Notes under the pieces: generated by a model
What the model was told of the DNA's origin: nothing
What the model saw: the letters and a program-made list of their open reading frames with translations, nothing else
The model's database searches: none
Source of the DNA: Actinophytocola gossypii
GTDB taxonomy: Bacteria > Actinomycetota > Actinomycetes > Mycobacteriales > Pseudonocardiaceae
Direction of reading: 5' to 3'
Assembly (NCBI RefSeq): GCF_025165815.1
Contig: NZ_JAFFZE010000009.1
Coordinates: forward strand, 186,001-250,000
DNA: 64,000 nucleotides
Made by a program: the position numbers and the translations under genes
Shown here: piece by piece, positions 7,353 through 58,563 of the stretch
Position numbering within the stretch: the first letter of the stretch is position 1
Layout of the letters: the number at the start of each line of letters is the position of its first letter

Positions 7353-7694
7353 ATGGCTGGTGGTAGTGCGATCCGGGGGACGCGGGTCGGTGCCGGGCCG
7401 ATGGGCGAGTCGGAGCGCGGGGAGTCGGCGCCGCGCCGCAGGGTTTCCTACTGGTGCGCCAACGGGCACGAGTCCCGTCCGTCGTTCGCGCTCGACGCCG
7501 AGGAGCCGGAGTCGTGGGACTGCCCGCGGTGTGGGCTGCCGGGTGGGCGTGACGAGCAGGAGCCCCCGAAGGCGCCGCGGAACGAGCCGTACAAGACGCA
7601 CCTGGCGTACGTGAAGGAACGCCGCTCCGACGCCGACGGCGAGGCCATTCTCGCCGAGGCCCTGGCCAAGCTCCGCAAACAGCGCGAGGGCTGA
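7353..7694 (+). CDS. rbpA: RNA polymerase-binding protein RbpA
   Basis: A 113-residue RbpA, the actinobacterial RNA polymerase-binding protein that stabilises the sigma-A/SigA-like holoenzyme and open complex. IRGTRVG near the N-terminus matches the family tail. The core has zinc-type ligands C35, H39, C57 and C60 (WCANGHE and CPRCG). The C-terminal basic helix (YVKERRSDADGEAILAEALAKLRK) corresponds to the sigma-interacting region. It lies 64 nt after secG and ends at a strong hairpin. The central loop is longer and more acidic than in Streptomyces sequences I recall. Confidence 0.93.
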   Translation: MAGGSAIRGTRVGAGPMGESERGESAPRRRVSYWCANGHESRPSFALDAEEPESWDCPRCGLPGGRDEQEPPKAPRNEPYKTHLAYVKERRSDADGEAILAEALAKLRKQREG

Positions 7695-7707: not shown

Positions 7708-7737
7708 AGGCCGCCCGTGGTCAGCCACGGGCGGCCT
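7708..7737 (+). terminator. Terminator after rbpA
   Basis: Perfect 13-bp stem (arms 7708-7720 and 7725-7737, AGGCCGCCCGTGG) with a TCAG tetraloop, 14 nt after the rbpA stop. It precedes the 22-bp repeat cluster. Confidence 0.88.
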
Positions 7738-7754: not shown

Positions 7755-7861
7755 GGAACGTACGACTCGCGCGACGGGAACGTACGACTCGCGCGACGGG
7801 AACGTACGACTCGCGGGGGTCGCGAGTCGTACGTTCCCGTTCGGCGAGTTGTACGTTCCCG
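7755..7861 (+). repeat. 22-bp repeat cluster R1 with hairpin
   Basis: Three direct copies of GGGAACGTACGACTCGCG plus a short spacer start near 7754, 7776 and 7798 (period 22). Two inverted copies follow (7821-7839 and about 7842-7861, the second with TTG for TCG). The third copy and the first inverted copy form a perfect 19-bp stem (7797-7815 with 7821-7839) around GGGGT. The cluster fills the space between convergent rbpA and the histidine kinase gene and can act as a terminator for the kinase. Related clusters occur at 24979 and 52619. Confidence 0.92.
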
Positions 7862-7879
7862 TTGGGGTGTGGGGGTCAG

Positions 7880-24909: not shown

Positions 24910-24978
24910 CAGACGATGGTATGGAAGCGACCCGGTGCCACCGGTCGCGGGTACCGCCACGTACCCGCCACCCGCGAC

Positions 24979-25018
24979 GGGAGCGTACGACTCGCGCGAC
25001 GGGAGCGTACGACTCGCG
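24979..25018 (+). repeat. 22-bp repeat cluster R2
   Basis: Two direct copies of the repeat in the variant form GGGAGCGTACGACTCGCG (24979-25000 and 25001-25018), ending three bases before the stop of the ABC permease gene. There are no inverted copies; the last arm can form only a short ACTCGC/GCGAGT stem across the permease stop codon. It lies between the permease 3' end and the ctaA 5' end. Confidence 0.88.
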
Positions 25019-25021
25019 GGG

Positions 25022-25798
25022 TCAGGCGAGTTTGGTGGTGCGGGTGGCCAGGGCGCCTGCCGCGCCGCCCCAGGCCAGGAGGGTGGCGAAGACGGTCCAG
25101 TGGGGGGCGGTGCCGTCGGTGAGGGCGGTGTGCAGGCCCTCGGCCAGGGCACCGGACGGGAGGAACGTCACGATGTCGGCGAGCGGGCCGGGCATGGAAC
25201 TCGCCGGGACGGCGATGCCGCCGGCCAGCAGGAGCACGAACCACACCAGGTTCGCCAGGGCCAGGACGATCTCGGCCTTGAGGGCGCCGCCGAGCAGGAC
25301 GCCGAGGGCGCCGAAGGACAGGGTGCCGAGCACCACCAGCAGGACGGCCCAGACGATGCCGGTCGCGGAGGGGGACCAGCCGAGGGCGGCGGCCACCACG
25401 CCGAGTACGACCAGTTGGACGGCGACCACGACGAACGCGGCGCTCGTGCGGCCCGCGAGCAGCAGCCAGCGGGGCAGTGCGGTCGCGGCGAGCCGTTTCA
25501 CCACGCCGTAGCGGCGGTCGAAGCCGAGGGCGATCGCCTGGCCGGTGAACGCGGACGACATCACCGCCAGCGCGAAGATCCGCGGTGCCACCGAGTCGAC
25601 CCTCGGCTCGGGCAGCGAGAAGATCGTCAGCAGGGTCAGGCCAACCAGCAACGCCAGCGGGATCAGCAGCGTCAGCAGGATCTGCTCGCTGTTGCGCAGC
25701 GTCAGCACCGCCTCGGTGCGCGCGTGCGTGGCCAACATCCGGCCGACCCGGCCACGTCCTGGCGCGGGCGCGAACGTCCCGGCGGGGAAGGTGGTCAC
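25022..25798 (-). CDS. ABC-2 type transporter permease
   Basis: A 258-residue permease with six hydrophobic segments, of the ABC-2 export family. TEAVLTLRNSEQILLTLLIPLALL and the DRRYGVVKRLAATALPRW coupling region are recognisable. The GTG start at 25798 overlaps the stop of the ATPase gene (GTGA), giving a coupled two-gene transporter. The pair corresponds in position to Rv1457c-Rv1458c, annotated as an antibiotic-type ABC transporter; the substrate here is unknown. Repeat cluster R2 follows directly. Confidence 0.92.
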   Translation of the reverse strand: MTTFPAGTFAPAPGRGRVGRMLATHARTEAVLTLRNSEQILLTLLIPLALLVGLTLLTIFSLPEPRVDSVAPRIFALAVMSSAFTGQAIALGFDRRYGVVKRLAATALPRWLLLAGRTSAAFVVVAVQLVVLGVVAAALGWSPSATGIVWAVLLVVLGTLSFGALGVLLGGALKAEIVLALANLVWFVLLLAGGIAVPASSMPGPLADIVTFLPSGALAEGLHTALTDGTAPHWTVFATLLAWGGAAGALATRTTKLA

Positions 25799-51741: not shown

Positions 51742-51801
51742 GGGCGTGAGCGTAACTCCCGTGATCGGACTAACGCGCCCGGCCGGTGCGTTGCTCCCGG
51801 T

Positions 51802-52605
51802 ATGCCTCTCGATATCGGTGTCCTGCTTCCGACCTCCACCCCCGACCCGACCCGGCCGATCCTCGGCGACGTCCGGGCGAGCGCGCGGTTCGCCGAGGAG
51901 GCCGGGCTCGACTCGGTGTGGTCGACCGACCACCTGGTGGCCAGCGGTCCGATGCTGGACAGCACCGTGGTCCTCGCGGCGGCCTCGGCGGTGACCGAGC
52001 GCATCACGGTGGGTTTCAACGTGATGCTGCTGTCGCTGCGGCCGGTCGCCTGGGCGGCGAAGCAGGTGAGCAGCCTGCAGCACGTGTCCGGCAACCGGCT
52101 GGTCCTCGGGATCGGCACCGGCAACCCCGCGCACGGCGACGTCGCGTGGCGCGCCACCGGTCTGTCGTACGCCGACCGGGGCCGCCGGACCGACGAGGCG
52201 CTGCGGGTGCTGCCGGACCTGGTGGCCGGGAACCGGACCGTGCTCGACGACGGCGTGGAGGTTGCCCTCGCCCCCGGCGCCGCGATGCCACCCGTGGTGA
52301 TCGCCGGCAACGGCCGCGCGGCACTCCGCCGAGCGGCCGCGTACGGCGACGGCTGGGCCTCCATCGCCCTGCCGCCCGAGGACATCGCCGCAGGCCTCGC
52401 CGAGATCGCCCGCCTCGCCGGCGACCGCCCACCGGCCACCGCGACGGTCGTCGGCCCCGAGGTGGACCCCGACCCGGCCCGCACGGCGGAACGCCTGGCG
52501 TCCTACGAGGCGGCCGGCGCCACCCGCGTGATCCTCGCCCCGACCAGCCCCGACTGGCACCGCGACTACGAGTTCGCCGCCAAGGTCCGCGCCGCCTACC
52601 CCTGA
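51802..52605 (+). CDS. LLM-class F420-dependent oxidoreductase
   Basis: A 267-residue luciferase-like TIM-barrel oxidoreductase. MPLDIGVLLPTSTPDPTRP, FAEEAGLDSVWSTDHL, FNVMLLSLRPVAWAAKQ and NRLVLGIGTGNP follow the usual order, and the size fits F420-dependent members. The ATG at 51802 is 60 bp from the divergent MobA-like gene. The substrate is unknown. A long repeat cluster begins 13 bp after its stop. Confidence 0.9.
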   Translation: MPLDIGVLLPTSTPDPTRPILGDVRASARFAEEAGLDSVWSTDHLVASGPMLDSTVVLAAASAVTERITVGFNVMLLSLRPVAWAAKQVSSLQHVSGNRLVLGIGTGNPAHGDVAWRATGLSYADRGRRTDEALRVLPDLVAGNRTVLDDGVEVALAPGAAMPPVVIAGNGRAALRRAAAYGDGWASIALPPEDIAAGLAEIARLAGDRPPATATVVGPEVDPDPARTAERLASYEAAGATRVILAPTSPDWHRDYEFAAKVRAAYP

Positions 52606-52618
52606 CCCGCGCCGCCAA

Positions 52619-52810
52619 CGTACGACTCGCGCGCCGGGAACGTACGACTCGCGCGCCGGGAACGTACGACTCGCGCGCCGGGAACGTACGACTCGCGCGC
52701 CGGGAACGTACGACTCGCGCGCCGGGAACGTACGACTCGCGCGCCGGGAACGTACGACTCGCGAAGCTCGCGAGTCGTACGTTCCCGTTCGGTGAGTTGT
52801 ACGTTCCCGT
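52619..52810 (+). repeat. 22-bp repeat cluster R3, seven copies plus two inverted
   Basis: Seven direct copies of the unit (core CGTACGACTCGC starting at 52619, 52641, 52663, 52685, 52707, 52729 and 52751), exact period 22, separated by the constant GCGCCGGGAA segment and no unique spacers. Two inverted copies follow (52768-52787 and about 52791-52808, the second with TTG for TCG). It lies between the F420 gene and the convergent NmrA-like gene. Same family as R1 and R2. Confidence 0.95.
52745..52787 (-). terminator. Hairpin made from repeat arms
   Basis: Perfect 20-bp stem: the last direct copy (52745-52764, CGGGAACGTACGACTCGCGA) with the first inverted copy (52768-52787) around an AGC loop. 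It would terminate the NmrA-like operon from the right and transcripts of the F420 gene from the left. Confidence 0.85.
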
Positions 52811-52817
52811 TCGGGGG

Positions 52818-53651
52818 TCAGGTGGGGGTGAAGGCGGGGGCGTGGTCGGCGGCCCAGCGGGTGAGGGTGCGGGGCGGGTGGCCGGTGATCTGCTCGTACG
52901 TCGGCGAGATCGGTGCTGGGCCGGGTGGGTGGGCGAGGAACATGTGGTCGACCACGTCCGGCGGGAGGCCAAGGGCGAGGAGGTCCGTGCGTGACTCCTC
53001 GGGTGTCACCTCCTCGAACCGGATCGGGCGGTTGATGCCGGTGGCGATGGCGGCCACCTGTTCCCGGAGGGTGAGTGACTCGGGGCCGGTGAGTTCGTAG
53101 CGCCGGCCGGTGTGGGTGTCGTCCAGTAGGGCGGCTACGGCGACGTCCGCGATGTCGGCCTCGTGGATCGGCGCTCCGCACGCCTCGGGGTACGCGGAGC
53201 GGACCGCTCCGTGTGCGCGGATCATCGGTGCCCAGTGGTCCAGCTTGTTCACCGCGAACTCGCCCGGGCGCAGGATCGTCCACTCGCAGCCGCTCGACTC
53301 GACCGCGAGCTCCATGTCGAACAGGGAGTCGGACGAACCCAGCATCACCATGCGCCGTACGCCGGCCGCGGCGGCGACCTTCACCAGGTCGGTCGCCTCA
53401 ATCACGTCCGACAGGTCGCGCAGTACGGGCCGCAGGTACGCCAGCGGGAACACGAACATCCTGGTCACGCCCGTGAACGCGGTCGCGAAGGTCTCCGGGT
53501 GGGCGAGGTCGCCGCGCACCACCTCGACGCCGTCGGGCAGGCCGGCCGACGACGGTGAGCGGGTCACCGCCCGGACCCGCTCGCCCGCGCGCAACAGCCC
53601 GGACACCACGTGCCGGCCGACGTTCCCGGTCGCCCCGGTCACCAGGATCAC
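52818..53651 (-). CDS. NmrA-like NAD(P)-binding reductase
   Basis: A 277-residue atypical SDR of the NmrA/quinone-reductase QorB-like group. Rossmann motif VTGATGNVGRHVV at the N-terminus; SGCEWTILRPGEFAVN replaces the classical Tyr-Lys region. GTG at 53651 with GGGGAG six bases upstream, overlapping the stop of the upstream paralogue. The family contains redox sensors and quinone reductases; the substrate is unknown. Last gene of a two-gene operon under the divergent TetR. Confidence 0.9.
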   Translation of the reverse strand: MILVTGATGNVGRHVVSGLLRAGERVRAVTRSPSSAGLPDGVEVVRGDLAHPETFATAFTGVTRMFVFPLAYLRPVLRDLSDVIEATDLVKVAAAAGVRRMVMLGSSDSLFDMELAVESSGCEWTILRPGEFAVNKLDHWAPMIRAHGAVRSAYPEACGAPIHEADIADVAVAALLDDTHTGRRYELTGPESLTLREQVAAIATGINRPIRFEEVTPEESRTDLLALGLPPDVVDHMFLAHPPGPAPISPTYEQITGHPPRTLTRWAADHAPAFTPT

Positions 53652-57801: not shown

Positions 57802-58386
57802 ATGGACCCTAGCCGGACCGCCGGACTGGTGACCGAGGCGTTGTCACCCGCGGTGGTCGTGGTGGCATTGCCACTGGCCGTGGCCTGGGACGCCACAGAC
57901 CACTCGATCGGGGCCACGATCGGGTGGGGCCTGCTGGTCGCGGTGTTCTACAGCGCGCTGCCGATGGCGTTCGTGGTGCATGGTGCGCGGCGGGGCCGGT
58001 GGGACGGGCACTGGGTGCGGGACCGGGAGCACCGAACGCTCCCGCTGGTGATGTGCCTGCTGTCCGCGCTGGTCGGGATGGCGGTGATGGTGTGGCTGTC
58101 CGCGCCGGCCGCCGTGGTCGCCCTGGCTTGGGCGATGATCACGACGTTGGTCGCGTGCTTGGTCATCACTCGATGGTGGAAGGTCTCGGTGCACGCGACG
58201 GTGGCCGGGGGAGCGGTCGCGATGGTCACGTTCCTGTACGGGCCGTGGCTGTTGGCGCTGGTCCCGCTGGTGGCGCTGGTCTGCTGGTCGCGGGTGGTGG
58301 TGCAGGACCACACGGTCGCCCAGGTGGTGGCCGGCGCCCTGCTCGGCCCCCTGGTCGGCGGTGCGGTCTTCCTGGCGCTCAGCTGA
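57802..58386 (+). CDS. PAP2-superfamily membrane protein
   Basis: A 194-residue protein with about six hydrophobic helices. The phosphatase signature is partly visible as WKVSVHATVAGG and WSRVVVQDHTVAQVVAGALLG, corresponding to the second and third PAP2 motifs. The first motif (KxxxxxxRP) is weakly represented by RDREHRTLP, so catalytic competence is uncertain. It may dephosphorylate isoprenoid or lipid phosphates. ATG 57802. A 14-bp repeat array starts within its stop codon region. Confidence 0.82.
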   Translation: MDPSRTAGLVTEALSPAVVVVALPLAVAWDATDHSIGATIGWGLLVAVFYSALPMAFVVHGARRGRWDGHWVRDREHRTLPLVMCLLSALVGMAVMVWLSAPAAVVALAWAMITTLVACLVITRWWKVSVHATVAGGAVAMVTFLYGPWLLALVPLVALVCWSRVVVQDHTVAQVVAGALLGPLVGGAVFLALS

Positions 58387-58563
58387 TGGTGCGGCTCTGA
58401 CGGCGTGGTTCTGGCGGTGCGGCTTTGATGGCGTGGTTCTGATGGTGCGGCTTTGATGGCGTGGTTCTGATGGTGCGGCTTTGATGGCGTGGTTCTGATG
58501 GTGCGGCTTTGATGGCGTGGCTCTGGCGGCGCGGCTTTGATGGCGTGGCTCTGGCGGCGCGGC
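58383..58563 (+). repeat. 14-bp minisatellite
   Basis: Twelve full 14-bp units from 58391 to 58558, with partial units on each side. They alternate between two forms, GCGGCTTTGATGGC and GTGGTTCTGATGGT, so the higher-order period is 28. The array begins at the PAP2 stop. The plus strand is almost free of C-rich runs and of A except in GATGG, a strong strand bias. The remaining 58564-58736 interval shows no gene. Confidence 0.93.

Follow-up and report, generated by a model that had tools for sequence, protein, structure and literature searches.

The window, i.e. the whole stretch of 64,000 nucleotides of Actinophytocola gossypii DNA that was analysed, carries at 52608-52814 an array of short repeats that follows the stop codon of a luciferase-like monooxygenase gene and on which an NmrA-like gene converges. 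The locus comprises the following features.

51790-52605, plus strand: luciferase-like monooxygenase gene (Pfam PF00296), start approximate; its stop precedes the array
52608-52763, plus strand: seven direct units with a period of exactly 22 bp, consensus CGCGCCGGGAACGTACGACTCG
52745-52787: perfect 20-bp stem closed by a 3-nt loop, in which the last direct unit pairs with the first inverted one (52745-52764 with 52768-52787)
52768-52787, minus strand: first inverted unit
52790-52809 (approximate), minus strand: second, degenerate inverted unit, with GTTGTAC for GTCGTAC
52818-53651, minus strand: NmrA-like gene (Pfam PF05368 and PF13460), converging on the array

The first-pass annotation had described seven identical repeats followed by inverted copies, which make a perfect 20-bp stem. 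The stem was recovered exactly, by pairing of 52745-52764 with 52768-52787, and 5 nt separate the two CGCG ends within it. The word "identical" has to be limited to the 13-base core: six of the seven direct units at 52608-52763 are the same throughout, and because the first one carries two spacer mismatches the statement does not extend to every full unit. Folding of the 88-nt strand 52723-52810 gives -74.9 kcal/mol, whereas its shuffles average -34.5 kcal/mol (z -12.0). A consensus scan of 52300-53100 detected no T-tailed terminator, and no known Rfam RNA family matched at its gathering score in 52000-53500. We did not retain the class of intrinsic terminators, the stem being found and the T run absent, nor that of CRISPR arrays, which have identical repeats and unique spacers of about 30 bp, since the period here is 21-22 bp and the units of a run share their spacers. 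The array had been correctly observed, yet it is a small part of a dispersed 22-bp repeat family, two further arrays of which the annotation had missed in the window itself.

7709-7736, plus strand: separate hairpin that stands after the rbpA stop (7692-7694) and before the second array
7755-7863, plus strand: second array, three direct and two inverted units, between the convergent rbpA and histidine-kinase genes
24973-25018, plus strand: third array, a one-way pair of direct units that stops 3 nt away from the called 3' end of an ABC-2 transporter gene on the minus strand

Counted with at most one mismatch, the 11-mer occurs 22 times in the window, against 3.57 expected from shuffles. The window also holds a different tandem repeat at 58383-58553 (period 28, 6.1 copies, 93% matches).

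Over the 7.38-Mb genome, the core CGTACGACTCGCG is present in 175 exact copies, compared to 0 for the reversed control. The unit follows the skeleton GARYG-NNN-RACTCGC (reverse GCGAGTY-NNN-CRYTC), recurring every 21 or 22 bp, and 212 runs from ten sets gave the consensus C-S-G-G-A-R-C-G-(3 variable)-R-A-C-T-C-G-C-G. The search pattern fixes or narrows several positions of this consensus and thus sets part of the skeleton, so that independent evidence of conservation comes from the remaining positions only. The centre of the unit varies by array and by species (GTACG, GCACG, GGGGG, GGGCA and GCAGA are examples), and units are alike inside many runs, though not all. Our sample for the window's genome consisted of 51 fetched regions and the window, and contained at least 56 arrays, 27 of them one-way and 29 with units in both directions. 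In three genomes, runs in both orientations were counted at 26 of 46, 7 of 16 and 10 of 12 sites, a lone unit in the second direction being scored as one-way.

The spacing of the units is strict. With intervals from 12 to 36 bp allowed, 430 of the 441 unit pairs of five genomes were 21 or 22 bp apart: 22 bp (170 pairs) or 23 bp (1 pair) in the window's genome, 21 bp in Prauserella flavalba (85 of 86), 22 bp in genome G267 (69 of 70), and 21 or 22 bp in both Amycolatopsis suaedae (63 of 63) and Lentzea (43 of 51). The same five genomes have 27 to 34 distinct spacer sequences each; unit spacing tolerates substitutions, not length changes. A period close to two helical turns, pointed out in the first-pass annotation for the single array, is therefore kept strictly in five genomes. 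Such spacing fits a constraint on helical phase; it could also be inherited from one ancestral array.

Two layouts recur: direct units that meet inverted ones, and a run directly behind a stop. In the first layout the junction measured exactly 5 nt at all 19 hairpin places of the window's genome, a pattern that permitted other lengths having been used, and a slightly relaxed pattern gave 16 different loop sequences among 22 loops. The second layout reads TGA, a few C, then GCGAGTCGTAC....

The position of the arrays relative to genes, which we called with a home-made codon-usage caller, is far from random; the random placement that the annotation had named as a refutation of its own reading was not seen. 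Fifty-one of the 56 sampled arrays lie between genes and distribute over 28 convergent, 10 and 9 tandem and 4 divergent spaces. The remaining five (L087, L092, L096, L128 and L132) lie inside called genes, though a period of 22 bp is not divisible by three, and correspond either to miscalled frames or to real in-gene arrays. In L105 (3069-3168), an array begins shortly past what looks by eye like a tRNA 3' end. Within 800 kb of P. flavalba and G267, arrays occupy 10 of the 97 spaces between convergent genes, 14 of the 321 between tandem genes and 1 of the 124 between divergent genes (Fisher test, convergent versus divergent p 0.0014, versus tandem p 0.043; for spaces of at least 100 bp, p 0.0001 and 0.065, respectively); these stretches were picked for holding matches, which should not favour any kind of space. 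Over 400 kb of P. flavalba, the tandem-repeat rows bearing the skeleton were intergenic in 22 of 23 cases, and none lay between divergent genes.

Runs whose GCGAGT end faces a stop often start 2-8 nt past it, a tendency that is clear in two of four genomes. In the window's genome, 21 of 31 such runs fall within 8 nt, all of them at 3-6 nt, where uniform placement predicts 6.1 of 31 and reached at most 14 in 20000 trials; the 44 runs facing the opposite way are spread from -2 to 220 nt off the stop. P. flavalba has 11 of 19 GCGAGT-first runs within 8 nt compared to 3.1 expected (highest trial 10), in a set that includes two loci picked for their arrays. In G267 the figures are 6 of 11 and 0.7, and they add little because four of these six runs overlap the end of the gene as called and up to 7 were reached in the trials. 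Just 5 of the 30 intergenic runs of A. suaedae lie within 10 nt of a stop. Among 18 stop-facing runs at least 35 nt away from the stop in question, four are found at 61-66 nt, that of rbpA included, and at these four sites an independent strong hairpin stands between stop and array.

The exact core is patchy in the family, with more than 10 copies in 4 of 200 genomes, the window's own included. We then used a model of two adjacent cores, based on sequence only, whose training units were taken from several genomes that it then matches. With at most 22 candidates scored per genome, it gave matches at E ≤0.01 in 75 of 297 Pseudonocardiaceae genomes and in 23 of 46 genera; 48 of the matching genomes hold at least three matches and 52 have a best E ≤0.001. 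We inspected matches in 20 regions of nine genomes and at eight loci. Named hosts are Amycolatopsis suaedae, A. pithecellobii, Prauserella flavalba, P. endophytica and Lentzea sp. NBRC 105346. Of 298 genomes drawn from the order, six gave matches at E ≤0.001. Three belong to the family (the window's own and two more) and three lie outside it, each of the latter with one match. The genome scan returned four unrelated records with one match each. Two adjacent exact cores were found in none of five other species of the genus. One of these, G132, had 13 weak hits with the two-core model, the best at E 3e-4, which may represent a diverged form of the arrays; the other four gave no match. No description of the repeat was found in the open-access literature searched, a coverage outside which most subscription journals fall.

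In A. suaedae, arrays were also seen within longer composite elements (L036, L047, L055, L056, L070, L075, L078 and L080), in which units ending GAGCGCAGAAC or alike are followed by a common linker starting TCACGATGTGGAC..GGTTCTCAC (8 matches); units of the GCGAGTCGTACGTTC kind stand behind the linker in six of the eight. Arrays of Lentzea sp. NBRC 105346 (L037, L043, L045, L052, L059 and L069) adjoin by eye a recurring sequence rich in GCGGAGCGCGAGCC-like stretches, with TTTGGGCA in several loci.

To follow the arrays over shorter distances we took four intergenic sites of P. flavalba and examined their counterparts in P. endophytica, G053 and G014, the flanks being 73-95% identical. P. endophytica and G053 carry arrays in the same spaces and in the same orientation, with different centres and copy numbers. 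In G014, the most distant, the arrays are decayed at the compared sites and parts of the sites are rearranged or lost. At one site the upstream match to P. endophytica is interrupted, so that only the downstream flank counts as orthologous. Arrays of Prauserella thus keep their position, orientation and spacing while unit centre and copy number turn over. In G031, of the same genus as the window's genome, the syntenic NmrA gene has no array behind it and is directly followed by the next gene. We also noted that the luciferase-like gene is absent from the syntenic place in G031, where a MobA-like gene, identified by eye, comes after NmrA.

Taken together, these data define a dispersed, family-specific class of phased intergenic arrays of which 52608-52814 is one member. 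The reading that we favour, tentatively and at less than even confidence, is that of phased protein-binding arrays that would mark or insulate gene ends. The array would act mainly as double-stranded DNA, and a sequence-specific protein would contact every unit at its conserved ends, from one face of the helix. The bound array might then mark or insulate the gene end, either by blocking polymerase run-on or, between convergent genes, by acting on topology or the nucleoid in the manner of a BIME. At sites with inverted units, such as 52608-52814, the transcript could form a strong hairpin too, which may stop transcription or protect the 3' end, and the centres would turn over by slippage and homogenisation inside runs. 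The placement of the arrays, their proximity to stops, the phasing with free spacers, the fixed junctions and the persistence in Prauserella suggest such a role. Several observations speak against it. The stop-facing orientation is as much a signature of transcription or RNA; stop proximity is not general; the arms of G267 pair as an RNA hairpin would predict; and five species of the same genus are without adjacent cores, the NmrA gene of G031 being without an array. The weak stop proximity in G267 and A. suaedae led us to lower slightly the odds of phased binding and to raise those of a selfish repeat.

The latter is the main rival, possible in our view though somewhat doubtful: a selfish or neutral intergenic repeat of the BIME or NIME kind would multiply through copying and slippage and be seen at gene ends because copies landing in genes or promoters are removed. 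This would account for the patchy distribution (more than 10 exact cores in 4 of 200 family genomes), for the turnover of copy number and centre at the four Prauserella sites, for the four sites where the array comes after a separate hairpin, and for A. suaedae, where most runs are not near a stop and composites share a common linker (8 matches). Tolerance alone, however, predicts neither a distance of 3-6 nt from the stop in one orientation in the window's genome nor a fixed spacing with a free spacer. PF01797 (Y1_Tnp) had no match in the window's genome, which led us to reject a RAYT/REP system there, and gave none in 13 of the 14 genomes searched, the single genome with a match being G205. 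Carriage as cargo of mobile elements was rejected likewise, viral contigs (searched with one exact two-unit pattern), plasmids and phages giving no match.

A third possibility, rather unlikely, is that the inverted units are bidirectional terminators without a U tract and that the extra copies are expansions of one arm, as the annotation had proposed in calling every unit a copy of a terminator arm. The perfect 20-bp stem, the strong folds of two window arrays (z -12.0 and -8.9), the 5-nt loop of fixed length and variable sequence, the enrichment between convergent genes and the runs in both orientations (26 of 46, 7 of 16 and 10 of 12 sites) all agree with this. The proposal of arm copies nevertheless did not hold as a general reading: 27 of 56 arrays are one-way, the one-way array of the window, folded at 24965-25022, behaves like its shuffles (z -0.39), and the T-tail is absent at 52608-52814. 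The presence of separate hairpins at four sites also argues against it. Moreover, the 80 nt past stops that face GCGAGT-first arrays fold no more stably than those past array-free convergent stops in three genomes (mean MFE -35.5 versus -35.9, -37.3 versus -38.7 and -25.6 versus -43.4), folds of this length excluding pairing partners that lie further away. Co-evolution of the arms, which would have backed RNA hairpins, was rejected after comparison of same-site arms with shuffled ones. At >< sites of the window's genome the arms are less complementary than shuffled ones, with 5.59 mismatches per 38 nt compared to 4.06, a value that none of 10000 shuffles reached; the instability of long perfect palindromes is a possible reason. 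Arms of <> sites in this genome pair less stably by energy than shuffled ones, the mismatch excess not being significant (p 0.13), and those of P. flavalba trend away from better pairing (p 0.93 for more stable). Two other Prauserella showed no clear trend (p 0.21), and G267 is supportive, its arms pairing better than shuffled ones (p 0.0064). Given the one-way arrays, the z of -0.39, the 80-nt folds, the missing T-tail and the arm mismatches, RNA pairing is not the common denominator of the arrays; phase, unit ends and gene-end placement are.

Phased binding also has a stronger form, modelled by analogy on the Sal box/TTF-I terminator arrays of eukaryotic rDNA, in which short tandem sites lie behind a gene and are oriented towards it. 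In a bacterial counterpart, phased and oriented arrays of protein sites would stop polymerase through the bound protein close behind stop codons in several genera of the family, and the centre would co-evolve with the protein while place, orientation and spacing stay. We consider this unlikely; the eukaryotic system serves as an analogy-only model for an array that blocks polymerase. Tandem Rho-loading (rut) sites on the sense strand right behind the stop codon are very improbable: arrays do lie directly past the stop in one orientation, with YC at 19.8 versus 14.0 and C-G at 0.099 versus 0.007 behind array-facing stops of the window's genome, but P. flavalba shows no clear rise (YC 14.9 versus 14.3, C-G 0.016 versus 0.036) and in 5 of 9 genome sets the run mean of C over G is negative or close to zero, and this lack of a general C excess weakens the reading.

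The closest known kinds of repeat are REP/BIME and dRS3/NIME. REP/BIME elements of enterobacteria and pseudomonads are mosaics of tandem and inverted repeats. They occur as short repeats scattered outside genes, often where two genes converge (PMC1525189). The arrays described here resemble them in being extragenic and located at gene 3' ends and in convergent spaces, a likeness that is weaker in A. suaedae. They differ in three respects: the unit is not an imperfect palindrome, judging from its consensus and from the two-unit one-way array (z -0.39), strict phasing at 21-22 bp is the rule, and no RAYT (Y1) transposase was matched in the window's genome. In Neisseria, dRS3 is a 20-bp repeat with conserved ends and a variable centre, found together with other repeats in intergenic mosaics and described as ATTCCC(N8)GGGAAT, in which 8 free bases are flanked by a 6-bp inverted repeat (PMC3898611). 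A. suaedae has comparable composite elements, whereas the unit ends here form no exact inverted repeat, as compared by eye between consensus and pattern, and the units follow each other head to tail in phase. Set beside the arrays by description, the MIRU of mycobacteria are also tandem intergenic repeats of Actinomycetota, minisatellites whose units are several times longer than 22 bp.

Transcription in high-GC actinomycetes often ends without classical terminators, and the repeat family provides, at gene ends or close to them, a regular signal that can be searched for. The arrays are variable minisatellites and could serve for strain typing. Species that carry different centres at the same sites offer a natural experiment, in which any protein that binds the arrays would be expected to change along with the centre.
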